Source: Solirubrobacteraceae bacterium
GTDB lineage: Bacteria; Actinomycetota; Thermoleophilia; Solirubrobacterales; Solirubrobacteraceae
Direction: 5' to 3'
Assembly: GCA_016462625.1 (NCBI GenBank)
Contig: JAEMSV010000094.1
Span: 1 to 14,405 of the forward strand
DNA length: 14,405 bases
The translations under genes and the position numbers were made by a program. The notes under the pieces were generated by a model. It was not told where the DNA came from. It worked only from the letters and a program-made list of their open reading frames with translations, and did no database searches. How positions within the stretch are numbered: the first letter of the stretch is position 1; every line of letters begins with the position of its first letter. Positions 562-14,405 of this stretch are shown piece after piece.

Positions 562-582
562 ATCCTACCAGTGAGGTCGGAT
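562..582. promoter_or_regulatory. Inverted repeat: likely Rrf2 operator overlapping divergent promoters
   Basis: ATCCTACC (562-569), five spacer bases, then GGTCGGAT (575-582): 7 of 8 arm positions are complementary. It lies in the gap between the Rrf2 gene and the small plus-strand gene. On the minus strand the left arm contains TAGGAT (567-562), a -10-like box 8 nt before the Rrf2 ATG. On the plus strand CATAAT (558-563) is a -10-like box 7 nt before the GTG at 571, which itself lies in the spacer. Binding here would block both directions. No convincing -35 element is visible on either side. That Rrf2 is the binder is inferred from position and symmetry. Confidence 0.5.
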
Positions 583-774
583 AAGCCTTCATCCCCTGGC
601 GCCTGCGACACCGGTGTGTGCGGCGCGGATGTGCCGCCGCTGGTCGGGTCGATCCTGACCGGGGTCGGGATGACGGTCGCACAGGCTGCGGCGGCGCTGG
701 AGCGCGGCGAGACGGTCGCGCTCACCGACGTGCAGGAGCGGATCGTCCAGGAATGGGCTTCAGCGCGACTGTAG
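571..774 (+). CDS. Small uncharacterised protein with a CDTGVC motif, divergent from the Rrf2 gene
   Basis: A 67-aa reading frame starting with GTG and ending in TAG. After the first nine or so codons the third positions are almost all G or C, as in the neighbouring real genes. The N-terminal part carries CDTGVCG (residues 12-18), two cysteines separated by four residues. This is followed by a short hydrophobic Gly/Val/Leu section and an amphipathic acidic helix (AQAAAALERGETVALTDVQE). I do not recognise the family. A shorter form starting at the ATG at 670 (34 aa) is possible but would lose the cysteines. There is no Shine-Dalgarno sequence. The position back-to-back with the regulator and inside its putative operator suggests co-control with Fe-S or redox status; this is inference. 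Its stop codon is the TAG of the TAGGCT box before the next gene. Confidence 0.5.
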   Translation: MRSDKPSSPGACDTGVCGADVPPLVGSILTGVGMTVAQAAAALERGETVALTDVQERIVQEWASARL

Positions 775-798: not shown

Positions 799-3324
799 GT
801 GAGCACCGAGACGACACCCCAGCTGTTCGGACGCGCCCGTGAGGTCACCCGCGTCGCGCACGCCGTCACCGTGGGCAGGCCGGTGCTGATCATCGGAGAG
901 CCGGGAATCGGGAAGACCGCCTTGGCACGTGCGGGTGGCCGCGCGGCGAACCCCGCCAACATCTGGCAGGGCGGTGGCATCGCGACCCTCGACTGGGTCA
1001 GCTACCTCCCTTTCCGCCGCGCCCTGCAGACGGAGATCCCGAACGCTGAGCCGAGCGTGGTCGCGGACTTCCTCGCCGACCGCGCGGATGGCGGCGTCTT
1101 CATCATCGACGACCTGCAGTGGGTCGACGACGACACCATCACCGCGACGCTGCTCCTCGCGGAGCAGGCCCCCGTCATCGCCACGACCCGCCCGGTGCCT
1201 CGCGGCGAGGACGTGCGCGAGCGGCTCGCCGCAGCCCGCTTCGACGTCATCGACCTCGCGCCCCTCCCCGAGCCAGACGCCGCGGAGCTCGCCCTGGCAC
1301 AGAACCCTTCACTGACGCGCCTCGACGCGATCTCGGTCGCCCGCCGCGCCCGGGGGAACCCGCTCTTGATCCAGGGCCTCGCGCACGCCGAGCGCGACAC
1401 CACGGAGCTTTCCCTGGCGTTGCGGGCACGCCTGGCCGACCTCACGCCAGACGCCCGCGAGATCCTCCACCGCATCGCGATCCTCGAGCGTCCCGCGCAG
1501 CTCGACATCGCCTCGGACGACCTGCAGCAACTCCTCGACATGGGCCTTGTCATCGAGCTGCCGGACGGCGTCCAGGTACGCCATGCCCTCATTGCCGACG
1601 CCGTCCTCGAAGGGTTGTCGGCGGAGGAGCAGCGCGAGGTGCATCGCGCGCTCGCGCCGCTGCTCGACGCCCCGGGCGAAGCCGCTCGGCACTGGGCCGC
1701 CGCCGGCGAGAGGGGTGCCGCCAGAGGCCTCGCCCTCCGCGCCGCGCAGACGGCGGACCGACCGGTGGAGCGCGCCCGCTGCGCCGCGCTGGCGGCCACC
1801 TGCCTCGAGGGCCCAGAGCGCGACGGCCAGATCGTGGCGGCGATGGCGCGGCTCGCGGCACTGGGCGACTTCGGCTCGGTCGTCGGGCTCCGTGAGGAGA
1901 TCGCCCCAGGCAGCGATGTCGAGCCTGAGGCGTATCGCCTGCAGGCGCGTGGCCTATTCGAGAGCGACGACGCCGAGGCTGCCGGCGAGGCCATCGCGTC
2001 GGGGCTCACCGCCGCACAGAAGCTTGAGGATGCTGCCGCGACGGCGCGGCTGAAGATCACTGCTGCCTACCACGGGCTGTGGTCGATGGAGTTCGACGCC
2101 GACGCGATTCTCGAAGCGATCGCATGCGCCGAAGAGGTCGGCGCGATCGCCGACGCCGAGATGCACGTGCAGGCTGCGGCTGGACTCGCCCCGGCGCTGG
2201 TCGGAACGGACAACCCGCTGGCCGTCGAGATGGCCCACCGCGGCCGGGAGCTCGCCCGCGCTGAGGGACACGACTGGGCCGAGCAGGAATCCTGGGCCGC
2301 CGAAGCGACCGCGCTCACCAACCTCGACCGCGCGGCCGAAGCCCGGGAGTGCACCCGACGCGGCGAGGCGGAGCTGCTCGCGAAGGGCTACCACGCGACG
2401 GTCGCCAGGATCCGGGCGTCTCGCGCCGACCTGCTGATCTTCGACTGCGAGTTCGACACCGTCCTGGCGCTCACGGAGGAGCTGCTGGCCCGGCCGAGCC
2501 TGCTCGGCGGAAGCTGGGACACCGCCACCTGGAGCCGGGCCTTTGCGCTCAGCGAAACGGGCCACGCCGCCGCCGCGGACGCCCTGTTTTCCGAGCTCGG
2601 GAGCCAGGCCCAGCGAGACCGGACGTTCAACGTCACATGGCTCCGCGCCAAGGCGCTCCTGTCCCGCGGCGACGGGTGGAGCGCATTGCCGCTGGCCGAA
2701 GCCGCCGTCGAGTACAGCCAAGGAACGTTCCTGCAGCCCCAGGCGGCGGCCACGCTCAGACGCGCCCAGTGGGAATGCGGCATAGCCGTCACGCCGCCTG
2801 GCCCACTCATGGAGACGCGCATCGCCGCCGCCTTCCGAGCCGAGCTCGCGGGGCTGGGAGCGCTCGACGCCGGCGACTGTGGAGAAGCGATCGAGCACTT
2901 TCGGCTCGCGATTTCGCAGAACGGCTGGCGACGACACCGTCTGCGGTGCCGCCTCGGCCTCGCGGAGGCGCTCGATCAGGTCGATCCCGAGCAGGCCACG
3001 GCCGAGTTCGAAGCGCTCGCCACCGACCTGCGTGAAGCGGGCTGGGCCGTCCTGCACCGGCGTGTCGAGCCTCTCGTGACCGCTCCCCCCGGGAGTCGGC
3101 GTCTGCGCGCGGCCAGTCCCCGCGGCGCCGGTGACCTCACCGAACGTGAGAACACCGTCCTCACGCTGGTCGCCGACGGACTCACCAGCCGTCAGATCGC
3201 CGACCGACTCGGCATCAGCCAACCCACTGTCGAGACCCACGTCCAAGCGGCCATGCGCAAGCTCGGTGCCAAGACCAGGGCCGAAGCCGCAGCCACCGCG
3301 AAGACCCCCACCGCCACCCGATGA
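799..3324 (+). CDS. LuxR-family ATPase regulator (MalT/LAL-like), copy 1
   Basis: An 841-aa predicted cytoplasmic transcription activator. Walker A is GEPGIGKT at 33-40, Walker B VFIIDD at 100-105 followed by LQWVD, and a sensor-like strand ends in TTRP at 129-132. GNPLL at 186-190 is the conserved GNP motif of MalT/LAL NTPase modules. A winged-helix-like part follows at about 205-275. Helical TPR-like sequence then runs to about 700; it includes ARHWAAAGE and a QWECG motif. The C-terminal GerE/LuxR DNA-binding domain is at 780-832 (LTEREN...SQPTVETHVQAAMRKLGAKTRAEAA). In this class ATP and an inducer drive oligomerisation and DNA binding; the inducer here is unknown. The GTG start is fixed by alignment with copy 5, whose first codons are nearly the same. 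There is no Shine-Dalgarno sequence. The stop overlaps the ATG of copy 2. Confidence 0.93.
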   Translation: MSTETTPQLFGRAREVTRVAHAVTVGRPVLIIGEPGIGKTALARAGGRAANPANIWQGGGIATLDWVSYLPFRRALQTEIPNAEPSVVADFLADRADGGVFIIDDLQWVDDDTITATLLLAEQAPVIATTRPVPRGEDVRERLAAARFDVIDLAPLPEPDAAELALAQNPSLTRLDAISVARRARGNPLLIQGLAHAERDTTELSLALRARLADLTPDAREILHRIAILERPAQLDIASDDLQQLLDMGLVIELPDGVQVRHALIADAVLEGLSAEEQREVHRALAPLLDAPGEAARHWAAAGERGAARGLALRAAQTADRPVERARCAALAATCLEGPERDGQIVAAMARLAALGDFGSVVGLREEIAPGSDVEPEAYRLQARGLFESDDAEAAGEAIASGLTAAQKLEDAAATARLKITAAYHGLWSMEFDADAILEAIACAEEVGAIADAEMHVQAAAGLAPALVGTDNPLAVEMAHRGRELARAEGHDWAEQESWAAEATALTNLDRAAEARECTRRGEAELLAKGYHATVARIRASRADLLIFDCEFDTVLALTEELLARPSLLGGSWDTATWSRAFALSETGHAAAADALFSELGSQAQRDRTFNVTWLRAKALLSRGDGWSALPLAEAAVEYSQGTFLQPQAAATLRRAQWECGIAVTPPGPLMETRIAAAFRAELAGLGALDAGDCGEAIEHFRLAISQNGWRRHRLRCRLGLAEALDQVDPEQATAEFEALATDLREAGWAVLHRRVEPLVTAPPGSRRLRAASPRGAGDLTERENTVLTLVADGLTSRQIADRLGISQPTVETHVQAAMRKLGAKTRAEAAATAKTPTATR

Positions 3325-5822
3325 CCGGCACCACGGCGGATGCCCTCATCGGGCGCTCAGCAGAGGTCCACCGCGTTGCGCGCGCGGTCGCCGCCGGACG
3401 ATCCGTGCTGATCATCGGCGAGCCCGGCGTCGGCAAGACGACCCTCGCCCGCGCAGGGGCAACAGCGGCAAACGTGCCGAGGATCTGGGAGGGCGGCGGC
3501 ATCGCGATGCTCGACTGGGTCAGCTATCTGCCCTTCCGCCGCGCCCTGGGGCTCGACCTCCCCGATGGCGACGCGTCCGTTGTGGCCGACTTCATCTCCG
3601 ACCAGGCGGGAAGCGGCGTATTCCTCGTCGACGACCTGCAGTGGGTCGACCAGGACACGATCACGGCGACGCTGTTGATCGCCGAGCGGCTCCCCGTCGT
3701 CGGTGTCGTGCGCGAATCCCCGCGAGGGCACAAGGTCCGAGATCGCCTGGCGGCCGCGGGGTTCGAGGTCCTCGAGCTCGGGCCGCTCGACGACGCCGAC
3801 GCGACCCTGCTGGCACAGGCCCACAACGCCGCGCTGACCGCTGGCGATGCGGCGGCTGTCGCACGGCGCGCTCGGGGCAATCCCCTGATGGTCCAGGGCC
3901 TCGCGCACGCGGGTGAACGCACCGATGAGCTGGCGCTCGCGCTCCGCGCACGGCTCGGCGAACTCTCCGTCCCGGCGCGCGAGGCGCTGCATCGCATCGC
4001 CGTGCTGGAGCGACCCGCACGAATGGCACTGGCACCGGAGGACCTGCGACAGCTCACAAGCCTCGGCCTCATCGTCGAGACCCACGAGGGCGTCCAGGTC
4101 AGCCACGCGCTCATCGCGAGCGCCGTTCTCGACGGGCTGCCGGCAGAGGCCCTCGCCGAGGTCCATCGGCAGGTCGCACGAAACCTCGACGATCCAGGTG
4201 AGGCGGCGCGCCACTGGGCCGCGGCGGGCGACCGCGGGCACGCGCGAGCGCTCGCCCAGCGAGCGGCAACGACGACGGAGCGACCCGTTGAGCGCGCCCG
4301 TTGCGCCGCGCTGGCGGCTGAGTGCCTGGAGGGCCCGGGCCGCGACGAGGAGCTCGTCGCGGCGATGGGCGGCCTCGCTGCGGTTGGAGACTTCGCACGG
4401 CTCGTCGACCTGAGCGAGCACGTCTCCCCCGACAGCGACGTGCTGCCCGAGGCACAACGGCTCCGAGCGCGCGGCCTGTTCGAGGGCGAGGACGCAGGCA
4501 GTGCGAGCGACGCGATCGAGGCCGGGCTCTCGGCGGCCAAGCGGTTGGGCGATGAGGCGGGCCGCGTGCGTCTTGAGCTGACCGCGGGCTATCACGGCAT
4601 GTGGTCCACGCTGGGAAGCCTGGAGGACACGTCCGCCGTCCTCGCCGTGTTCGCCCGGGCTCAGGAGCTGGGCGTGGCCGATGCCGAGATGCACGTGCTG
4701 GCCGCGGCGGCGCTGGTCGTCCTCCCCGGCCCCGATGCGGCCCTCCTCGCGCGACGTGGACGGGAGCTCGCGCGAGCGGGCGGCGACGTCTGGTCGGAGC
4801 ACACATCCTGGCTCGCCGAGGCCAGCGCATGCAACAACCAGGAAGGAGGGGTGAAGGCAGCGGAGATCTCGCGCCAGGGCGCAGAAGAGCTCACCTCGCG
4901 CGGGTACCGAACACCTGCCGTTCGCCTCCAGGCGCAGCGGGCCGATCTCCTCGCGGAGGAGTGTGAATACGCCGCTGCGCTCGGCCTCACCGAGGAGGTA
5001 CTGGCACGGCCGGCCCTTCTGGGGAACTACTGGGACATGGCGACTTGGAGCCGTGCGATAGCGCTGAACGACATCGGACGGACCGCGGAAGCGGATGGGC
5101 TCTTCGACGAGCTCCAACGAGTCGAGCTCGACAACTCAGCTGGCTACGTCGCGTGGATCCACGCAGAGTCCCTGTGGGCGCGTGGCGACGCTCTCGGGGC
5201 CATGCGCGCAGCCACCGCCGGACTGGAACGCATGACGGTGACGGTGCAACGCCCGCAGATCGTCGCGGTGCTCGCCCGCGCCCAATGGGAGTACGGGGCG
5301 CCGCAGGCCCCGGACGGCCGGCTCGGGATCGACGGCGTCACCGCCCCGTACGAAGCGGAGAGTGACGCGCTGTATGCCCTCCAGATGGGCGCGTCTGCAA
5401 ACGCTGTCGAGGCCTTCGAGACCGCGATCGCGTTGGGCTCGAGCCGTCGGCACCGGCTACGTTGCCGTCTCGGGCTCGCGGAGGCGGTCGATCGCATCGA
5501 CCCCGAACGGGCCACCACGATGTTCGAGACCGTGAGTGCCGAGCTCGCCGTGGTGGGCTGGACGGTCCTGCACAAGCGGGTCGTATCGCTGATCGATCAG
5601 CCACTCGGAACCCGCCGGCTGAAGGCGGTGCCGCCGGCGGCCACGGGCGCGCTGACCGCACGCGAGCACGATGTCCTCACGCTGGTCGCCGACGGACAGA
5701 CGAGCCGGGAGATTTCCGAGCGGCTCGGCGTGAGCCTGCCGACCGTCGAGACGCACATCCGCTCGGCCAAGCGCAAGCTCGGCGCGAAGACACGAGCGGA
5801 GGCCGCGGCAGCGCGCCGGTAG
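3321..5822 (+). CDS. LuxR-family ATPase regulator (MalT/LAL-like), copy 2, divergent and coupled to copy 1
   Basis: An 833-aa paralogue starting in the ATGA overlap with copy 1, so the two are very probably co-transcribed and translationally coupled; it has no promoter box of its own. Walker A is GEPGVGKTTLAR at 33-44, Walker B about 100-105 (VFLVDDLQWVDQDT), and the GerE-type HTH at 778-830 (SLPTVETHIRSAKRKLGAK). It is the most divergent of the five. The TTRP/VTRP sensor-like motif has become VVRES, LLDMGL in the winged-helix part has become LTSLGL, and the QWECG cysteine is a tyrosine (QWEYG). The motif after YHxxWS is also changed. The catalytic P-loop and DNA-binding helix are intact, so it is not a pseudogene. 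It could have a different ligand or act as a partner of copy 1; that is inference. Confidence 0.92.
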   Translation: MTGTTADALIGRSAEVHRVARAVAAGRSVLIIGEPGVGKTTLARAGATAANVPRIWEGGGIAMLDWVSYLPFRRALGLDLPDGDASVVADFISDQAGSGVFLVDDLQWVDQDTITATLLIAERLPVVGVVRESPRGHKVRDRLAAAGFEVLELGPLDDADATLLAQAHNAALTAGDAAAVARRARGNPLMVQGLAHAGERTDELALALRARLGELSVPAREALHRIAVLERPARMALAPEDLRQLTSLGLIVETHEGVQVSHALIASAVLDGLPAEALAEVHRQVARNLDDPGEAARHWAAAGDRGHARALAQRAATTTERPVERARCAALAAECLEGPGRDEELVAAMGGLAAVGDFARLVDLSEHVSPDSDVLPEAQRLRARGLFEGEDAGSASDAIEAGLSAAKRLGDEAGRVRLELTAGYHGMWSTLGSLEDTSAVLAVFARAQELGVADAEMHVLAAAALVVLPGPDAALLARRGRELARAGGDVWSEHTSWLAEASACNNQEGGVKAAEISRQGAEELTSRGYRTPAVRLQAQRADLLAEECEYAAALGLTEEVLARPALLGNYWDMATWSRAIALNDIGRTAEADGLFDELQRVELDNSAGYVAWIHAESLWARGDALGAMRAATAGLERMTVTVQRPQIVAVLARAQWEYGAPQAPDGRLGIDGVTAPYEAESDALYALQMGASANAVEAFETAIALGSSRRHRLRCRLGLAEAVDRIDPERATTMFETVSAELAVVGWTVLHKRVVSLIDQPLGTRRLKAVPPAATGALTAREHDVLTLVADGQTSREISERLGVSLPTVETHIRSAKRKLGAKTRAEAAAARR

Positions 5823-5844: not shown

Positions 5845-8331
5845 GTGGCGACCGTCAAGACCCCATTCCTGTTCGGGCGCGCCCGCGAGATCGACCGGAT
5901 CGCCGACGCAGTCAAGACCGGGCGCCCCACCCTGATCGTCGGTGAGCCGGGCGTCGGCAAGACGGCCCTGGCGCGTGCCGGTGTCCGGGCCGCAAACACC
6001 GTCCAGACCTGGGAAGGCGGCGGCATCGCGACCCTCGACTGGGTCAGCTATCTCCCCTACCGCAGAGCGCTCGGAGTGGAGCTCCCCGACGGCGACCCCG
6101 TGGTCGTCGCAGACTTCCTCGCCGACCACGCGGCCGGGGGAGCGTTCATCGTCGACGACCTCCATTGGGTCGATCAGGACACCGTCACCGCGACGCTCCT
6201 GCTGTCCGAGCGCGTGCCGGTGGTCGCCGTCACACGGCCCATGCCTCGAGGCGAGGCCATCCGCGAGCGCCTGGCCGCCGCAGGCTTCGACGTCATCGAC
6301 CTCGAAGCGCTCGCCGAGAACGACGCGGCCCGGCTCGCGGCCGTCCAGAACGCTTCGCTGACCGGGGCCGATGCGCATTCGGTCGCGCGGCGGGCCGGCG
6401 GGAACCCGCTGCTCATCCAGGCGCTGGCCCACGCGGGCGACGACACGACCGAACTGGCGCTCGCGCTCCGCGCGCGTCTCTCGGAGCTCTCGCCCACCGC
6501 CCGCAGCGCCCTGAACCGCGTTGCGGTCCTCGAACGACCCGCACGGCTCGACGTCACTTCCGGCGATCTCCACCAGCTGGTGGACATGGGGTTGGTCACC
6601 AACGCGGCGGACGGGGTTGAGGTCCGCCACGCCCTCATCGCCGACGCCGTGCTGCAGGGCCTCTCGGCCGCCCAGTTGCGGGATGTGCACCGCGCCGTCG
6701 CCCAGCACGTCGACGACCCGGGCGAGGCCGCCCGGCACTGGGCCGCAGCCGACGAGCCGACCCGCGCCCGCGAGCTTGCCCTGCAAGCGGCGACGACGGC
6801 GACGCGTCCGGTTGAACGCGCGCGCTGCGCCGCGCTGGCCGCCTCGTGTCTCGACGGCCCGGTCGGGGATGAGGAGCTCGTCACGGCGATGCAGCGCCTC
6901 GCGGCCCTCGGTGACTTCCCCACCGTCGTCGACCTCAGCGTGAGCGTTCCCGCGGGCAGTCCACACGAGCCAGAGGCACTGCGCCTCCGAGCACGCAGCC
7001 TGTTCGAAGCGCACGACGCCGACGGCGCCGCGGAGGCTGTCGCTGCTGGCATGGCGGCAGCGATGCGCGTCGAGGACGCCGTCGCGACGGCCCGACTGCA
7101 GATCACCAAGGCGTACCACGACCTGTGGTCCTTGGAGACTGACGCCCAGGGCCCGCTGAATGCTGTCGCCCTCCTGGAGGCCGCCGGCGTCGCCGACGCG
7201 GAGATGTACGTGCAGGCCGCCGCGGCGCTCGCGTTCTTCCAGGACCCGGTCTTCGCCGTCGAACTGGCGCACCGCGGCCGGCAGCTCGCCGACGTGGAAG
7301 GCCACGCCTGGGCCGAGCAGGAGTCGTGGGCCACCGAGGCGACCGCCCTGAACAACAGCAACCGCGTGGAGGAAGCCGGCAAGGTCGCGCGCGAGGGCGA
7401 GATGGTGCTCCTCGGCAAGGGCTACCACTCCACCGTCGCGCGCATTCGAGCCACCAGAGCCGAGCTGATGGCGTACGCGTGTGAGTTCGACGCCGTACTC
7501 ACGCTCACCGAGGACCTGCTGGCGCGCCCGGGCCTCCTGGGCGGCAGCTGGGACACCGCGGTCTGGAGCCGCGCCCTCGCGCTGAACGACACGGGAGCGC
7601 TCGACGCGGCCGATGCCGCCCTGAACGAGCTGGACGGACGGGTCCTGACGGGCGGCGCGTTCTGCGCCACGTGGATCCGCGCAGAGACCCTCATCAGTCG
7701 TGGAGATGCCGCGGGAGCGATGCGCATGTCGGCGAACGCCGTCGACCTCGGCAACGATCTTCTGCGCCCCGTTGCGGCGGCCACCCTGGCTCGCGCGCAA
7801 TGGGAGTGCGGGGTCCCCGTGACGGCATCGTACGTCAAGCACCCGGGCCTGGGCTCCTACGACGCCGAAATCAAGGCATGGATCGCACTCGATGCCGGCG
7901 CCACCGCGGACGCGATCAGGCACTTGGAGCTCGGTGTCTCGCAAGGGCAATGGCGTCGGCACGCCCTGTGGTGCCGACTCGGTCTCGCGCAGGTCCTCGA
8001 CCGCGTGGACCCTGAGCGCGCGAGCATCGAGTTCGACGCTCTCGCTCGCGAGCTGCGCGAGGTCGGATGGATCACGCTCCTCGCCCGGGTCGAGCCGCTG
8101 CTCGACGCACTGCCCGGAAGCCGCAGCCTCGCGGCAGCCAAGGGCAGCGTCCGAGGCAGCCTCACGCAGCGTGAGCACGACGTCCTGACGCTCGTCTCCG
8201 ACGGACTCACCAGCCGTCTCATCGCCGATCAGCTGGGCATCGGCCAGCCCACCGTCGAGAGTCACATCCGCTCAGCCATGCGCAAGCTGGGCGCAAAGAC
8301 GAGAGCCGAGGCCGCGGCGGCCCACGGGTAG
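5845..8331 (+). CDS. LuxR-family ATPase regulator (MalT/LAL-like), copy 3
   Basis: At 828 aa the shortest of the array. It opens at a GTG (MATVKTPFLFGRAREIDRI) with no Shine-Dalgarno sequence; the start is set by alignment of the LFGR motif at residues 9-12 with copies 1 and 5. Walker A GEPGVGKT is at 33-40. Walker B reads FIVDD and continues LHWVD, where the other copies have LQWVD. The sensor-like strand ends VTRP, and GNPLLIQ follows in the GNP position. The helical region keeps the family landmarks YHDLWS, DAEMYVQAAAALA, WAEQESWATEA and QWECG. The LuxR HTH is at 773-825. In its recognition helix it has GQPTVESH where the others have SQPTVETH or close variants, so its DNA preference may differ slightly. 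It ends in a TAG that forms the next TAGGCT box. Confidence 0.93.
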   Translation: MATVKTPFLFGRAREIDRIADAVKTGRPTLIVGEPGVGKTALARAGVRAANTVQTWEGGGIATLDWVSYLPYRRALGVELPDGDPVVVADFLADHAAGGAFIVDDLHWVDQDTVTATLLLSERVPVVAVTRPMPRGEAIRERLAAAGFDVIDLEALAENDAARLAAVQNASLTGADAHSVARRAGGNPLLIQALAHAGDDTTELALALRARLSELSPTARSALNRVAVLERPARLDVTSGDLHQLVDMGLVTNAADGVEVRHALIADAVLQGLSAAQLRDVHRAVAQHVDDPGEAARHWAAADEPTRARELALQAATTATRPVERARCAALAASCLDGPVGDEELVTAMQRLAALGDFPTVVDLSVSVPAGSPHEPEALRLRARSLFEAHDADGAAEAVAAGMAAAMRVEDAVATARLQITKAYHDLWSLETDAQGPLNAVALLEAAGVADAEMYVQAAAALAFFQDPVFAVELAHRGRQLADVEGHAWAEQESWATEATALNNSNRVEEAGKVAREGEMVLLGKGYHSTVARIRATRAELMAYACEFDAVLTLTEDLLARPGLLGGSWDTAVWSRALALNDTGALDAADAALNELDGRVLTGGAFCATWIRAETLISRGDAAGAMRMSANAVDLGNDLLRPVAAATLARAQWECGVPVTASYVKHPGLGSYDAEIKAWIALDAGATADAIRHLELGVSQGQWRRHALWCRLGLAQVLDRVDPERASIEFDALARELREVGWITLLARVEPLLDALPGSRSLAAAKGSVRGSLTQREHDVLTLVSDGLTSRLIADQLGIGQPTVESHIRSAMRKLGAKTRAEAAAAHG

Positions 8332-8354: not shown

Positions 8355-10877
8355 GTGAGCTCCCAACCAACATCCCTCGTCGGCAGAACCCAGGAGACGA
8401 AGCGCGTCGCCCACGCGGTCTCGGTCGGGCGTCCGGTGCTGATCGTGGGCGAGCCAGGGGTGGGCAAGACCGCGCTCGCACGTGGAGGCGCCCGGGCCGC
8501 GAACCCGCCGCGGATCTGGGAAGGCGGCGGGATCGCGACCCTCGATTGGGTCAGTTACCTCCCGTACCGCAGGGCGATGGACCTGGACCTTCCGAACGGC
8601 GAGGCGAGCGTCGTCGCGGACTTTCTCGCCGACAACGCGGATGAGGGGGTTTTCGTCGTTGACGACCTCCAATGGGTCGACGACGACACGATCACCGCAA
8701 CGCTGCTGCTCGCCGAGCGCGTGCCGGTGATCGCCGCCACACGGCCCATGCCGCGGGGACAGGATGTGCGAACGCGGCTGGCCGAAGCCGGGTTCGAGGT
8801 CATCGAGCTGGCGCCCCTCACCGAGGAAGACGCCGCGGACCTGGCGGCCGCGCAGAACCCGGCGCTCACAGAGCTGGATGCGCGGTCCGTCGCGCGCCGG
8901 GCCGGGGGCAATCCCCTGTTGATCGAAGGCCTTGCACACGCCGGCGAGCACACCACCGAGCTGGCGTTCGCGCTCCGTGCGCGGCTCGCCGAACTGTCCG
9001 AACCGGCACGCAGCGCGTTGAATCGCGTGGCGGTGCTCGAGCGTCCAGCGCGGCTCGACATCGATGCGGCTGATCTCGAGCAGCTTCTGGACATGGGCCT
9101 GGTTACCAGCACGCACGAAGGCATCCAGGTCCGTCACTCGCTCATCGCGGACGCGGTCCTGGAAGAGCTGTCGCCCGAGGCACTCCGCGAGGCCCACCGC
9201 GCGGTCGGTCAGCGGTTGGACGATCCGGGAGAGGCCGCGCGGCATTGGGCCGCAGCTGGGGATCTCGCGCAGGCAAGAGCACTCGCGTTGCGCGCCGCGC
9301 AGACCGCGGACCGTCCCGTCGAGCGCGAGCGGTGCGCCGCACTCGCCGCGACGTGCCTCGACGGCGCCGCGCGTGACGCCGAGCTGGTCGTAGCCATGGC
9401 CCGGCTTGCGGCGCTGGGCGACTTCGTCTCGGTCGTGGACCTTGGTCGGCACATCACACCAGGCAGCGTCCACGAGCCAGAGGCCTGGCGCCTCCGGGCC
9501 CGTGGCCTGTTCGAGACCCAAGCCTCCGAGGCCGCTGCGAACGCGCTCGCCTCTGGTCGAGCGGCGGCGCTCCGGCGCCAGGACGACGCCGGGATCGCCC
9601 GTCTCCGCATCACAACGGCGTACCACGACCTTTGGTCGATGGAGTACGACACAGCGACGACGATCGACGCGATTCAGTCGGCGCGGGAGCACGGCGTCGC
9701 GGACGCCGAGATGCACGTGCAAGCGGCGGCGGCCCTCGCCCCCGCCCCGGAGCGCAGGACACAGGCGCTCGCGGTGGAGCTCGCACAACGCGGCAATGAG
9801 CTCGCCGGAGTGGAAGGACATGCCTGGGCCGATCAGGAATCATGGGCTGTCACAGCGACAGCTCTGACCAACCTCGGGCGCGCGGCCGAGGCTCGCGAGG
9901 CCACCCGCCTCGGCGAGATCGAGATGCGTGCGCGCGGCTATCACGCGAGCGTTGCGCGCATCGGCGCTCGTCGCGCCGACCTGTTGGTCTTCGATTGCGT
10001 GTACGACGTCGTGATCGAGCTGACCGACGCCCTCCTCGCCCGCCCGGGTCTCCTCGGCGGAAACTGGGACACCGCGGTCTGGAGCCGGGCGCTCGCGCTC
10101 AACGACGTCGGGGCATTCGACACCGCCGACGCGCTGTTGGCCGAGCTCGAGGGTCGTGTCTCACGCGACGGCATGTTCAACGTCGCCTGGATCGGCGCCG
10201 AAGCGCTCCTGACACGGGGAGATCCGTGGGCCGCGACGCCGCTCGCGCAGACCAGCGTCCACATGACGCGTAAGGCCGCGATCATGCGCCCCCAAGCAGC
10301 GGCCACGCTGACCCGGAGCCAGTTTGAATGCGGTGTCCCACTCGTCGCGGAGACACTCGAGATCGACAGCATCGCCGCCCGCCCCTACAACGCGGAGATC
10401 CGTGGTCTCGAGGCGCTGCAGGCCGGTGCAGGGACTGAAGCAGTCGAGCGCTTCCGAACCGCGATCGCACAGAACGGCTGGCGGCGGCACGCGCTGCGGT
10501 GCCGCCTCGGCCTCGCGGAGGCCCTCGACCTCGTCGACCCTGAGCAGGCAACCGCACATTTCCATGAACTCGTCACGGACCTGCGCGACGTCGGGTGGAC
10601 CACCCTCCTTCACCGCGTTGAGCCGCTCGTCGACGCGCCTCCCGGTGGCCGCCGGTTGCGCCCGTCGGCACCTCCGGCCCCCGGCGGGCTCACCAAGCGC
10701 GAGCATGCCGTGCTGACCCTCGTCGCAGACGGGCTCACGAGCCGCGCGATCGCCGATCGGCTCGGGATCAGCCAGGCCACCGTCGAGACGCATGTCCGCG
10801 CCGCCAAACGCAAGCTCGGCGCGCGCACCCGGGCCGAAGCCGCAGCCTCGGTCAAGCCCGCCTCCGCGAGCCGATGA
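8355..10877 (+). CDS. LuxR-family ATPase regulator (MalT/LAL-like), copy 4
   Basis: An 840-aa paralogue starting at GTG (MSSQPTSLVGRTQETKRV), one residue shorter than copies 1 and 5 before the P-loop, so Walker A GEPGVGKT is at 32-39. Walker B reads VFVVDDLQWVDDDT and the sensor-like strand AATRP; GNPLLIEGLAHA is intact. Distinct features are QFECG in place of QWECG and a Thr-Gln-Ala-Ser-Glu insertion-like variation after ARGLFE. Its HTH at 779-831 has SQATVETHVRAAKRKLGAR. The lysine after AA is shared with copy 2 (SAKRKL), whereas the other copies have AMRKL. Domain order and length match the other copies and there is no sign of decay. The stop TGA lies in a CGATGA context like that at the end of copy 1, but here the overlapping ATG opens only a seven-codon frame. 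Confidence 0.93.
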   Translation: MSSQPTSLVGRTQETKRVAHAVSVGRPVLIVGEPGVGKTALARGGARAANPPRIWEGGGIATLDWVSYLPYRRAMDLDLPNGEASVVADFLADNADEGVFVVDDLQWVDDDTITATLLLAERVPVIAATRPMPRGQDVRTRLAEAGFEVIELAPLTEEDAADLAAAQNPALTELDARSVARRAGGNPLLIEGLAHAGEHTTELAFALRARLAELSEPARSALNRVAVLERPARLDIDAADLEQLLDMGLVTSTHEGIQVRHSLIADAVLEELSPEALREAHRAVGQRLDDPGEAARHWAAAGDLAQARALALRAAQTADRPVERERCAALAATCLDGAARDAELVVAMARLAALGDFVSVVDLGRHITPGSVHEPEAWRLRARGLFETQASEAAANALASGRAAALRRQDDAGIARLRITTAYHDLWSMEYDTATTIDAIQSAREHGVADAEMHVQAAAALAPAPERRTQALAVELAQRGNELAGVEGHAWADQESWAVTATALTNLGRAAEAREATRLGEIEMRARGYHASVARIGARRADLLVFDCVYDVVIELTDALLARPGLLGGNWDTAVWSRALALNDVGAFDTADALLAELEGRVSRDGMFNVAWIGAEALLTRGDPWAATPLAQTSVHMTRKAAIMRPQAAATLTRSQFECGVPLVAETLEIDSIAARPYNAEIRGLEALQAGAGTEAVERFRTAIAQNGWRRHALRCRLGLAEALDLVDPEQATAHFHELVTDLRDVGWTTLLHRVEPLVDAPPGGRRLRPSAPPAPGGLTKREHAVLTLVADGLTSRAIADRLGISQATVETHVRAAKRKLGARTRAEAAASVKPASASR

Positions 10878-10920: not shown

Positions 10921-13434
10921 GTGAGCACCGAGACGACACCCCTCCTGTTCGGCCGCTCCCGAGAGGTCGCGCGGGTCACGCACGCCATCAGGGCAGGGCG
11001 GCCGGTCCTGATCGTCGGTGAGCCCGGCGTCGGCAAGACCGCGCTCGCCCGCGCGGGCGCACGCACGGTGAATCGTCCACGCGTCTGGGAAGGGGGTGGC
11101 ATCGCGACGCTCGACTGGGTCAGCTACCTCCCCTACCGCCGAGCGCTCGGCCTCGATCTCCCCGACGGTGAGTCGAGCGTCGTCTCGGATTTCCTCGCCG
11201 AGCACGCGGACGGGGGCATCTTCATCGTCGATGACCTGCAGTGGGTCGACTACGACACCGTCACCGCCACGTTGCTCCTCGCCGCACGCATCCCGGTGAT
11301 CGCCGTCACGCGGCCCGTCCCGCGGGGCCACACCGTGCAGGAGCGGCTCGTCGACGCCGGGTTCGAGGTCATCGAGCTGTCGGCGCTCACCGAAGCCGAC
11401 GCGGCGTCGCTGGCGGCAGCCCAGAACACCTCGCTGACGATGGCCGACGCCATCTCCGTCGCCCGGCGGGCCAACGGCAATCCGCTCCTGATCCAGGGCC
11501 TCGCCCACGCCAGCGACGACACCAGCGAGCTGGCCCTCGCGCTCCGCGCGCGGCTGTCCGACCTCTCGGTCGACGCCCGCGAGGCGCTGCACCGCGTGGC
11601 GGTGCTCGAACGGCCCGCCCGCCTTGAGATCGCCGCCCCCGACCTGCGCCAGCTGCTCGAAATGGGCCTCGTCAGCGAGACACCGGAGGGCGTACAGGTC
11701 CGTCATGCCCTGATCGCCGACGCCGTCCTCGACGACCTGGCTCCGGACCAGCTCCGGGACGTGCACCGCTCCGTTGCGCAGCACCTCGACGACCCTGGCG
11801 AAGGGGCCCGCCACTGGGCCGCGGCCGGAGAGCCGGAGAGGGCGCGGGCGCTCGCCCTCCAGGCGGCGAAGACCGCAAACCGGCCGGCCGAGCGCGCCCG
11901 CTGCGCCGCACTCGCAGCCACCTGCCTGGATGGGCCCGGACGTGACCACGAGCTCGTGGTCGCCATGGGCCGGCTCGCCGCGTTGGGCGACTTCTCTTCG
12001 ATCGTCGAGCTGGGTGCGGAGATCGTGCACGGCGGCGAGCACGAGCCGGAAGCGCGGCGCCTCCAGGCGCGCGGGCTGTTCGAGGCGCGGGACGCGGACG
12101 CCGCGGAGGAGGCGCTCTCAGCCGGGCTGGCAGCCGCCCGACGGCTCGGCGACGAACGCGCCGAAGTCCGGCTGCGCGTCACGGCGGCCTACCACCGCCT
12201 CTGGTCGATGGAGTTCGACGCAGACGGCCTCCCCGAGCTGGTCGCGAAGGCCCAGGATCTCGACGTGGCCGACGCCGAGATCCTGATGCAGGCCGCAGCC
12301 ACGCTGGCACCGATGTGGGACCCGCCGCGCGCGCTCGAGCTGGCCCACCGCGGTCGCGACGTCGCCCGGTCCGCGGGCCACGCCTGGGCCGAGCAGGAGT
12401 CCTGGGTGATCGAAGCCACCACCCTGAACAACCTGGGCCGCCCGGTGGAGGCCGCCGAGGCCACCCGGGTCGGGGAGGCCGAGCTGCTCGCGAAGGGGTA
12501 TCACGCCACCGTCACCCGCCTGCGAGCGACGCGGGCAGAGCTGCTGGTGCACGCGTGTCGCTACGACGAGGTGCTCGCCCTCACCGAGGATCTGCTCACG
12601 CATCCGCACCTCCTCGGCGGCAACTGGGACGTCACCGTCTGGAGCCGTGCGCTCGCACTCAGCGACACGGGCGCCTTCGACGCCGCGGAGGCGCTCTGGC
12701 ACGAACTCGACGGCCGTGTCCTGCCGGACGGCGCGTTCCACGTCGCCTGGACCCGCGCCGAGGCGCTCCTCGCCCGTGGGGACACCTGGGCGGCGCTTCA
12801 GCTCGCCGGTACGGCGATCGAGCGAGCCAGTGCCAGTCTCATGCGCCCCCAAGCGGTGGGATCGCTCGCACGCGCGCAGTGGGAATGCGGCCTCCCGGTC
12901 GGCCGGAGCGAGCCGCCCGCGCACAGTCCCGCGGTGAACGCGTACGCCGCCGAGACGGACGGCCTCCTCGCGCTCCATTCCGGCGCGCCCGAGCGCGCGG
13001 TCGACCTGCTGCGCGACGCCGCGACGAGGACGGGATGGCGACGCCACGAGCTTCGCTGCCGCATCGGGCTCGCGGAGGCCCTCGACCTCTTCGACCCGGC
13101 CCAGGCGACCGTCGAGTTCCGCGCCATCGCAGAAGCACTGCGCGCACACGGGTGGATCCCCCTTCTCCAGCGGGTCGAACCGCTGCTCCACGCGCCTCCC
13201 GGCGGGCGCCGTCTTCGGCCATCTCGGACTCGCGCGCACGACAAGCTCACCGACCGGGAGCACGCCGTCATGTCGCTCGTCGCCGACGGGTTCACCAGCC
13301 GCCTCATCGCCGACCGGCTCGGCATCAGCCAGCCGACCGTCGAGACACACGTGCGCTCAGCAATGCGCAAGCTCGGGGCGAAAACGCGAGCCGAGGCCGC
13401 CGCAGCGACCCGCGCGACGGAGATCCCCGCGTGA
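10921..13434 (+). CDS. LuxR-family ATPase regulator (MalT/LAL-like), copy 5
   Basis: An 837-aa paralogue. I take GTG 10921 as the start because its first 22 bases equal those of copy 1 and the protein then begins MSTETTPLLFGRSREV. A longer frame from 10792 would only translate the end of copy 4 in another frame. Walker A GEPGVGKT is at 33-40, Walker B FIVDDLQWVDYDT at about 101-113, the sensor-like strand ends AVTRP, and GNPLLIQ is present. The GerE HTH at 776-828 reads SQPTVETHVRSAMRKLGAK; by hand it is identical to copy 1 at 44 of 53 positions. The helical part has QWECG and W-A-E-Q-E-S-W landmarks. The stop overlaps the GTG of the following small HTH gene (GTGA), implying coupled translation. 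Confidence 0.93.
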   Translation: MSTETTPLLFGRSREVARVTHAIRAGRPVLIVGEPGVGKTALARAGARTVNRPRVWEGGGIATLDWVSYLPYRRALGLDLPDGESSVVSDFLAEHADGGIFIVDDLQWVDYDTVTATLLLAARIPVIAVTRPVPRGHTVQERLVDAGFEVIELSALTEADAASLAAAQNTSLTMADAISVARRANGNPLLIQGLAHASDDTSELALALRARLSDLSVDAREALHRVAVLERPARLEIAAPDLRQLLEMGLVSETPEGVQVRHALIADAVLDDLAPDQLRDVHRSVAQHLDDPGEGARHWAAAGEPERARALALQAAKTANRPAERARCAALAATCLDGPGRDHELVVAMGRLAALGDFSSIVELGAEIVHGGEHEPEARRLQARGLFEARDADAAEEALSAGLAAARRLGDERAEVRLRVTAAYHRLWSMEFDADGLPELVAKAQDLDVADAEILMQAAATLAPMWDPPRALELAHRGRDVARSAGHAWAEQESWVIEATTLNNLGRPVEAAEATRVGEAELLAKGYHATVTRLRATRAELLVHACRYDEVLALTEDLLTHPHLLGGNWDVTVWSRALALSDTGAFDAAEALWHELDGRVLPDGAFHVAWTRAEALLARGDTWAALQLAGTAIERASASLMRPQAVGSLARAQWECGLPVGRSEPPAHSPAVNAYAAETDGLLALHSGAPERAVDLLRDAATRTGWRRHELRCRIGLAEALDLFDPAQATVEFRAIAEALRAHGWIPLLQRVEPLLHAPPGGRRLRPSRTRAHDKLTDREHAVMSLVADGFTSRLIADRLGISQPTVETHVRSAMRKLGAKTRAEAAAATRATEIPA

Positions 13435-13934
13435 GCCGGTACGTCCTCGCCGCCAGCAAGGAGGCGGCCGACCGCATCGCCGACGACCTCCGCAAGGAGG
13501 GCTGGCAGGTCCACCCCCGCCTCGAGCCCCCGGTCGCGGGCTGGCGGCTCGATCGCGGTCGCCATGTCTGCGTCGCGGAGACCGCGAACCGCCAGGCGGT
13601 GGAAACGGCGCTCCTGCTCGCGGTGCGAGGCGCAGGCATCATCGCCTGGACGTCGTCCCCAGATCATGCCGCCCAGCTCTACGACGGCCTCTCACGTCTG
13701 GGCACCGTGGAGATTCCCGAGGAGCCAAAGGTCGAGGGCGACCTCGACGCCGATCAGATTCGCATGCTCGGTCTGCTCGCCGACGGTGCCACCCAGGTGG
13801 AAGTGGCGGCGGCGCTCAGCTGGTCGCGCCGGACCGTGGCCCGGCGCCTCGCGGAGGCACGCAGCGCGCTTGGCGCAGCGACCACCGCGCAAGCCGTGGT
13901 GCTCTGGCGGCGCCGGTCCGATGGCACAGATTGA
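13431..13934 (+). CDS. Small LuxR/GerE-like HTH protein without ATPase, coupled to copy 5
   Basis: A 167-aa protein starting at a GTG inside the stop of copy 5, which argues for co-production. The C-terminal part (about 105-157, LDADQIRMLGLLADG...SRRTVARRLAEARSALGA) follows the GerE/LuxR HTH pattern but is degenerate. The usual LTxRE opening is LDADQ, the TVETH core is TVARR, and the KLGAKTRAEA tail is ALGAATTAQA. Residues 1-95 look like a small alpha/beta domain (RYVLAASKEAADRIADDLRK, then HVCVAETANRQAVETALLLA and GAGIIAW strands and helices). I cannot assign this part to a family. With no P-loop it cannot be an ATPase regulator itself. It may bind variant sites or act as a partner or antagonist of copy 5; this is inference. 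Its last four codons and stop lie inside the first unit of the downstream repeat array. Confidence 0.82.
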   Translation: MSRYVLAASKEAADRIADDLRKEGWQVHPRLEPPVAGWRLDRGRHVCVAETANRQAVETALLLAVRGAGIIAWTSSPDHAAQLYDGLSRLGTVEIPEEPKVEGDLDADQIRMLGLLADGATQVEVAAALSWSRRTVARRLAEARSALGAATTAQAVVLWRRRSDGTD

Positions 13935-14042
13935 TGAGGCCGCGATCGGGCGATGGCGCAGATTGATGAGGCGCCGCAGGCCGGGATGGCACACATTGAT
14001 GAGGTGGCCTCCAGAGGGCTGGCACACATTGCTGATGTGCCA
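13920..14042. repeat. Four-unit direct repeat array with potential covarying stem-loops
   Basis: Four 20-bp units begin at 13920, 13952, 13985 and 14018 (periods 32, 33 and 33). Unit 1 is GATGGCACAGATTGATGAGG. Unit 2 has GATGGCGCA, unit 3 has ACACATT for ACAGATT, and unit 4 is degenerate (GCTGGCACACATTGCTGATG). Units 2-4 can form stems around an 11-nt loop. In unit 2 GGCGC (13955-13959) pairs with GCGCC (13971-13975). In unit 3 GGCAC (13988-13992) pairs with GTGGCC (14004-14009) with one bulged G. In unit 4 GGCAC (14021-14025) pairs with GTGCC (14037-14041), and one more pair can be added on each side. Unit 1 can pair only GGC/GCC. The stop codon of the small HTH gene lies in unit 1. The array could be tandem operator sites on one face of the helix or a structured RNA; function is unknown. 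Confidence 0.75.
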
Positions 14043-14044
14043 AG

Positions 14045-14092
14045 AGGGGGAGCTGGGCAGGCTCTCGTTCCACCATGCACTCAGCTCCCCCT
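14045..14092. repeat. 11-bp perfect inverted repeat around the start of the 87-aa gene
   Basis: AGGGGGAGCTG (14045-14055) is exactly complementary to CAGCTCCCCCT (14082-14092), with a 26-nt loop. A G-U and a G-C pair can extend the stem inward. The ATG at 14075 is in the loop and codons 3-6 are in the right arm, so in RNA the stem would enclose the start site and hide the purine-rich AGGGGGAG. There is no T-tract on either side, so a classical intrinsic terminator is unlikely. It could modulate translation, block read-through from the regulator array, or be a protein-binding palindrome. Confidence 0.6.
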
Positions 14093-14338
14093 GACCACGA
14101 GCGTCACGCGCCGGACGACCTTCCCAGGACCCCAGAGCAGTGGTCGACGGACCTCGCCGAGCGACTCGACGATCACGTCAGCGATCTCGTCGACGTGGCG
14201 GAGGCGCTGCTCGAGTTCGTGGACGCCGGAGCCGGCGATCCCGACGACCTCGTGGTCCGGCGAGCCCGCCGCATGATCGACACGAGCGTGCAGGGTCTCG
14301 GCGCCATCGGCGCACAGCTCTGGGTCGGACCCCAGTAG
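14075..14338 (+). CDS. Acidic 87-aa protein of unknown function
   Basis: The reading frame MHSAPPDHERHAPDD... has strong third-position GC bias from about codon 12 to the TAG, which supports real coding. The first 20 residues are Pro/His/Asp-rich and probably disordered. Residues about 23-50 form an acidic helix (WSTDLAERLDDHVSDLVDVA), and a second amphipathic helix follows (DDLVVRRARRMIDTSVQGLG), ending GAQLWVGPQ. This would give a small two-helix protein with no signal peptide or membrane segment. I do not recognise the family. No ribosome binding site is visible at the usual distance; a purine-rich AGGGGGAG lies about 20 bases upstream but within a hairpin arm. The start could instead be further inside. 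Whether it belongs functionally with the regulators is unclear. Confidence 0.65.
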   Translation: MHSAPPDHERHAPDDLPRTPEQWSTDLAERLDDHVSDLVDVAEALLEFVDAGAGDPDDLVVRRARRMIDTSVQGLGAIGAQLWVGPQ

Positions 14339-14358
14339 CGCGTCACACCGCGCGGGCC

Positions 14359-14364
14359 TACCCT
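14359..14364 (+). promoter_or_regulatory. TACCCT box before the gene at the right edge (candidate -10)
   Basis: TACCCT fits the TANNNT form of the other boxes in the window and lies 7 nt before a GTG, the spacing expected for a leaderless transcript. It resembles the TAGGAT-8 nt-ATG arrangement before the Rrf2 gene. Confidence 0.35.
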
Positions 14365-14371
14365 CCCGGCG

Positions 14372-14405
14372 GTGAGCTCTCAGTTCCCGCTCCCCCGCCG
14401 CACCT
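14372..14405 (+). CDS. Start of an unidentified gene, cut by the window edge
   Basis: A GTG 33 bases after the stop of the 87-aa gene opens a frame reading MSSQFPLPRRT to the end of the window. Support comes from the TACCCT box 7 nt upstream and from the open, GC-rich codons. Eleven residues are too few to name a family, and the start may not be real. Confidence 0.35.
   Translation, partial: MSSQFPLPRRT

Follow-up and report, generated by a model that had tools for sequence, protein, structure and literature searches.

The MalT boxes of enterobacteria are direct repeats that are bound cooperatively, and CIRCE is a palindromic operator with a 9-bp spacer. The MalT sites of E. coli and Klebsiella are described as repeats of a GGA(T/G)GA core within the box GGGGA(T/G)GAGG, and the actinobacterial MalT motif in the same source, that of the MalT-like regulator of Actinoplanes, is an inverted repeat (PMC7567727). 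The SARP-LAL regulator PimR is reported to have one target gene, whose promoter contains the direct repeats that it binds; its operator is described as CGGCAAG heptamers separated by 4-nt (or 3-nt) spacers, and PimR lacks a LuxR-type HTH (PMC5930380).

The locus considered here lies in a window of 14,405 nucleotides, the whole stretch of DNA analysed, from a Solirubrobacteraceae bacterium. It contains five complete genes for LAL-type regulators of 828-841 residues (from the starts used) at positions 799-3324, 3321-5822, 5845-8331, 8355-10877 and 10924-13434, the last of which encodes an ATPase plus a LuxR HTH. They are followed by a small regulator gene (13431-13934, 167 residues) and by an orphan gene (14075-14338, 87 residues). 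All these genes are on the + strand and, as far as the small gene, each one overlaps its predecessor or follows it after a short gap. Between the small regulator gene and the orphan gene lie four copies of a motif with the consensus TGGCRCASATTGMTGAKG, starting at 13922, 13954, 13987 and 14020. The copies are arranged head to tail with spacings of 32, 33 and 33 nt, that is with a period of about three helical turns. On the + strand, unit 1 spans 13922-13939 (TGGCACAGATTGATGAGG) and includes the TGA stop codon of the small gene, unit 2 spans 13954-13976 (TGGCGCAGATTGATGAGGCGCCG), unit 3 spans 13987-14009 (TGGCACACATTGATGAGGTGGCC) and unit 4 spans 14020-14042.

The array has the top score among the eight rows returned for the window by Tandem Repeats Finder. 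When a chain was defined as 18-mers spaced by 30-36 nt with at most 4 mismatches, the longest chain in 200 shuffles of the 400-bp region was 1 in 197 cases and 2 in three cases, against 4 observed, and no chain of three or more copies was found elsewhere in the window. The four units at a 32-33 bp period, which had been proposed in a sequence-only reading of this DNA, are real and beyond chance. The array is best read as a set of direct-repeat binding sites for the adjacent LuxR-type regulators, which would control the orphan gene; a probability of about 0.45 is given to this reading, just short of even odds.

A scan of genome contigs with a LAL alignment yielded 12 loci, of which two are close relatives of the array: L001 in Svornostia abyssi and L002 in a Solirubrobacteraceae MAG. 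Each carries a single copy of the motif at the same place as in the window. The exact motif core is present once in L001 and once in L002, and is absent from the other 10 of the 12 loci. In the whole genomes of these two relatives (G001 and G002, which carry the L001 and L002 loci), one exact core match each was found among the matches listed, both at this locus. The distance from the start of the motif to the ATG of the orphan gene is 55 nt in the window, 53 nt in L001 and 55 nt in L002. Unit 4, which is the copy starting 55 nt 5' of the start codon in the window, is the positional counterpart of the single copy of the relatives. The small HTH gene adjoins the motif in two of the three loci, and a copy overlaps the stop codon of this gene in the window and in L001. 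Since the motif still precedes the orphan gene in L002, where the small gene sits elsewhere in the cluster, it goes with the orphan gene, just upstream of which it is found in all three loci. The small regulator gene of L002 (9394-9897) lies between two LAL genes rather than at the end of the array, and has no motif at its end.

The comparison of the motif rests on these three loci. Between L001 and L002 the first 20 motif bases (TGGCGCAGATTGATGATGCG) are identical at 20 of 20 positions, and identity is 91% over 23 nt, while ungapped alignment of the flanks gives 40% identity on the left and 26% on the right. Gapped alignment extends the likeness somewhat on the immediate left of the motif, where in the window and in L001 it partly reflects the 3' end of the small gene. 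Within the window, identity among the four units is 78-94% over the 18 nt that make up the left arm and centre, against 29-36% for the three spacers. This conservation extends to units 1 and 3, neither of which pairs. Over the six copies (the four units, L001 and L002), the invariant columns are six of seven in the left arm, seven of nine in the centre and two of seven in the right arm. Because the copies are alike and the spacers and flanks are poorly alike, we take the 18-20 nt sequence of the motif to be under selection, and to that extent the earlier claim of selection on the repeats holds. In favour of a neutral minisatellite, or of chance hairpins without function, tandem repeats arise by slippage and perfect 7-bp stems with 9-nt loops occur about three times per 10 kb in this GC-rich DNA. 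This explanation is already disfavoured by the position of the motif, which is the same in two other genomes whose flanks align poorly, and by the preservation of the motif inside an array that has not kept its spacers; very little weight is given to it.

A model built from the six copies and run with stricter filters at E <= 0.01 matched 7 of 232 genomes of the order. The best were G001 and G002, at about 3e-6 and 4e-6, followed by five others at 7e-4 to 0.009. The latter were treated as chance matches, with 4-7 mismatches from the 23-mer of L001; the stretches examined, one for each of the five, contain no relative of the small gene or of the orphan gene, and one of the five has a LuxR HTH match. 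Inside G001 and G002, the next matches of the model have E values of 0.28 and weaker. Inside L001, in a smaller search, a match was seen in the LAL region at 11855 (E 0.047). No copy of the motif was found in the upstream region of the LAL array itself. The tandem motif as an exact pattern gave no match in the genome contigs, a 241-bp query gave none in the plasmid collection, and viral contigs contained neither the tandem motif nor a relative of the small protein or of the orphan protein.

The protein of the orphan gene, a predicted two-helix hairpin, is 87-98 residues long across the loci. It belongs to no Pfam, NCBIfam or PADLOC family, and a structure search returned no match at E <= 0.001. 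Five relatives were found when the longer L001 form was used as the query, and in a class-level sample of 399 genomes it was detected at E <= 1e-6 in two, G001 and G002. A perfect 11-bp inverted repeat (AGGGGGAGCTG / CAGCTCCCCCT, 14045-14092, + strand) with a 26-nt loop encloses its start codon in the window. This repeat pairs a GGGGGAG stretch 5' of the start codon with codons of the orphan gene and is, by eye, absent from L001 and L002.

The motif copies can also be read as a short upstream frame (MAQIDDA / MAQIDEA / MAHIDEV / LAHIADV), which would be either a leader peptide or the true N-terminus of the orphan protein. The motif of L001 is indeed continuous in frame with the orphan gene. 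Of the four variable columns of the 18-mer, three fall on third positions (by-eye count), and spacings of 33 nt preserve the frame. However, the 32 nt from unit 1 to unit 2 break it, the frame stops after 11 codons in L002, and by its coordinates it is out of frame with the orphan gene in the window. In all five database homologues of the orphan protein, the annotated start is the later Met. The six copies also share the ATT codon and a T at the third position of GAT/GCT, although the surrounding genes have a GC3 of 0.83-0.89. Since the frames disagree between loci and between units, a coding role is considered most improbable.

The pairing of the arms had been central to the sequence-only reading, which described a 5-bp stem with an 11-nt loop in units 2, 3 and 4. 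The full hairpin of unit 4 has instead 7 bp and a 9-nt loop (TGGCACA-CATTGCTGA-TGTGCCA), and unit 3 has a G-G mismatch inside the 5-bp stem; only units 2 and 4 pair well. With G-U pairs allowed, three of seven positions are paired in unit 1, six in unit 2, four in unit 3 and seven in unit 4, compared with seven in L001 and six in the mismatched stem of L002. The perfect 7-bp arms of unit 4 and L001 differ by one compensated change, from A-T in unit 4 to G-C in L001. Over the six copies, 78.6% of the cells pair, versus 17-62% in registers slid by 1-3 columns, and both partners change in one of the seven pairs. When the columns of the six sequences were shuffled, 98 of 500 trials came up to the real alignment in covariation score and in the proportion of paired cells. 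The covariation that had been claimed thus amounts to one base pair and lies within what shuffling produces; with units 1 and 3 keeping the sequence without pairing, the conclusion of selection on structure was overstated.

Given the left arm, the chance that the right arm pairs as observed is 1.4e-4 for unit 4, 1.1e-3 for L001, 0.016 for unit 2, 0.018 for L002, 0.19 for unit 3 and 0.48 for unit 1, values that do not multiply because the copies are related. The folding of the whole region as RNA is ordinary, with z of -1.43 and -1.23 for the + strand and -0.51 for the - strand. In single contexts of 205-254 nt, one for each copy, the hairpin was predicted at 0.93-1.0 for L001 (250-nt context), at 0.77-0.83 for six of the seven pairs of unit 4 and at 0.71 for five pairs of unit 2 (a 205-nt context for both units), and was not predicted for L002, unit 1 and unit 3. 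Over seven contexts, the L001 hairpin was predicted at 1.00 in six and at 0.00 in one, that with only 57 nt added downstream, in which the left arm folds onto the start-codon region. Values were context-dependent for unit 2 (0.03-1.00) and unit 4 (0.28-1.00). The L002 hairpin was predicted at 0.79 as a bare 23-mer and at 0.00 in all six flanked contexts, and units 1 and 3 did not exceed 0.03 in any of the seven. Homologues that keep the sequence but not the pairing had been named in advance as evidence against a structural role, and the outcome is mixed: L001 has a perfect stem, L002 a mismatched one for which no hairpin was predicted once flanks were included, and units 1 and 3 have the sequence without the pairing. 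Some copies do pair, but pairing is not the feature common to all of them. A looser hairpin pattern with 2 mismatches was not used, as it matched 226 of the 232 genomes.

These predictions bear on the main rival of the operator array, namely an RNA element. In this reading, stem-loops of the intercistronic mRNA, with (G/C)AUUG(A/C)UGA as their conserved loop, would be bound by a protein or a small RNA and act on the translation or stability of the orphan message. Such an element would account for the hairpins predicted in L001, unit 4 and unit 2, for the pair that changes on both sides between unit 4 and L001, and for right arms that pair improbably well in unit 4, L001, unit 2 and L002. The co-directional arrangement of the genes, which overlap or are close together, and the lack of a visible -10-like site before the orphan gene, are also consistent with it. 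It is harder to reconcile with the absence of a predicted hairpin from the flanked contexts of L002 and from units 1 and 3, with the dependence on context of units 2 and 4 and the loss of the L001 hairpin in one context, with covariation that does not exceed that of shuffles, and with a left arm that is kept more strictly than the right. Rfam gives no match in the window at the gathering score, the best sub-threshold match near the array being to a lncRNA model (E 0.065). An RNA element is held to be rather unlikely.

The regulators next to the array are candidate binders. Precomputed assignments place GerE (PF00196) and AAA_16 (PF13191) in all five LALs of the window; our own scan of two of the five found GerE in both and AAA_16 above the cut-off in one. 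The HTH of the last LAL matches the NCBIfam MalT model at its C-terminus only, with 29 bits against a cut-off of 537, and this model is one of 20 families matching that HTH, several NarL-type families scoring higher. PADLOC gave two weak CARF-HTH matches on a LAL and nothing for the small protein. The latter has a predicted receiver-like N-terminal domain and a LuxR-type HTH. Its predicted fold has a mean pLDDT of 86, and its best PDB matches, among 11 at E <= 0.001 with low whole-chain TM-scores, are NarL-type response regulators. Six relatives besides itself were found among about 5.8 billion proteins at E <= 0.001. When its alignment was run against the 232 genomes of the order, 231 had some match at E <= 0.001; among the matches listed, only those in G001 and G002 are full length, at about 1e-88, the next being at 4.8e-11, and the top others cover mainly the HTH part.

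A tree built from 11 LAL proteins has a branch that places the five window copies together on one side; its support is 92/96 (not starred), it is present in 93% of 200 bootstrap trees, and the root is by midpoint only. The LAL array has thus probably expanded in this lineage. The numbers of LALs and of sites are five and four in the window, two and one in L001, and two and one in L002 (20-kb stretches for the relatives). That the number of sites follows the number of LAL paralogs is, from three loci, only a suggestion. Some LAL genes of the relatives appear to change frame, as separate tblastn pieces, at 10660-10669 and 12928-12931 in L001 and at 12343-12349 in L002; these may be real breaks or sequence errors. 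A similar short frame (by eye ..LVGS(I/V)LTGVGM..AQAAAALERGE..) ends just 5' of the first LAL in the window (571-774) and in L001 (9780-9921). The window copy overlaps an Rrf2-type regulator frame on the opposite strand.

The preference for an operator array rests on the retention of copies that do not pair, on a spacing close to three helical turns, and on LAL neighbours that are DNA-binding proteins with relatives that use repeated sites. The greater invariance of the left arm than of the right also suits a linear site. The motif would then be a locus-specific cis-acting site on DNA, repeated head to tail at about three turns of the helix. The binder would be one or more of the adjacent LuxR-type HTH proteins, among the five LAL/STAND ATPase regulators and the small receiver-like regulator, and binding would be cooperative, in the manner of MalT. 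The array would control the downstream orphan gene. The proximal copy may be ancestral, the extra copies having arisen or been kept where the LAL genes multiplied. The sequence-only reading had offered either tandem operators for the adjacent HTH regulators or a multi-hairpin RNA; the former is retained as the best reading and the latter as a rival only.

Several points stand against the operator array. An operator would need a promoter to act on, and none is visible. This argument is weak: no TANNNT (-10-like) sequence occurs in the 400 nt that precede the orphan gene in any of the three loci, but only about 0.17 would be expected per 400 nt; a scan of positions 13000-14405 gave no sigma-70 promoter. 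The search for a copy upstream of the LAL array was negative. The likeness to the MalT box is loose, the actinobacterial MalT motif is inverted, and PimR has no LuxR HTH. The arms of unit 4, L001, unit 2 and L002 also pair better than chance. A scan for intrinsic terminators also gave none. A sigma-54 promoter, suggested by the TGGCAC..TTGC likeness, was discarded, the GG-GC spacing being 2 nt short by a hand count against the consensus.

In a bolder form of the operator reading, the LAL expansion to five would have gone with an increase from one to four sites before a single orphan gene. The signals of sister regulators and of the receiver-like protein would be integrated by occupancy of a ladder of phased sites, the proximal rung of which could also form a hairpin in the mRNA. 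This scheme is regarded as improbable. As it stands, the motif is a conserved and uncharacterised cis element seen at three loci. No description of it was found in Rfam or in a literature search that included the decamer ATTGATGAGG (the titles among the matches listed were unrelated), in line with the earlier statement that no element of this form has been described. If it is an operator, it would provide the LAL/STAND regulator family, in an actinobacterial order that has been little studied, with a candidate target and binding site, and would be a natural example of regulators and sites multiplying together. If it is an RNA, it would count as a novel stem-loop, small and conserved.

Among known systems, operators of the CIRCE type resemble unit 4 and L001 in having inverted arms around 9 bp. 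However, the arm sequences differ, the 9-bp centre is itself well conserved here, and several copies have not preserved the right arm. MalT box arrays likewise repeat a short, asymmetric site whose core is GATGA, and MalT combines a STAND ATPase with a LuxR HTH, an architecture that the LAL neighbours appear to share. The GATGAGG of units 1-3 corresponds to seven of the ten positions of the MalT box; the likeness is loose, lower in unit 4, and absent in L001 and L002, which have GATGATG. Compared with the MalT box, the site is longer (16-18 nt), has the core TTGATGA and is spaced by 32-33 bp. Unlike MalT arrays, it is found at one locus per genome and has no visible promoter, and the LAL neighbours are not MalT by model score. 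The array is also direct, in contrast to the inverted repeat presented for Actinoplanes MalT. The PimR operator, as described, differs in being built of heptamers with 4-nt (3-nt) spacers rather than of an 18-mer at 32-33 bp, and in being bound by a regulator that lacks the LuxR HTH; in both cases, direct repeats precede a single target gene, here a putative one, and are associated with a large ATP-binding regulator.
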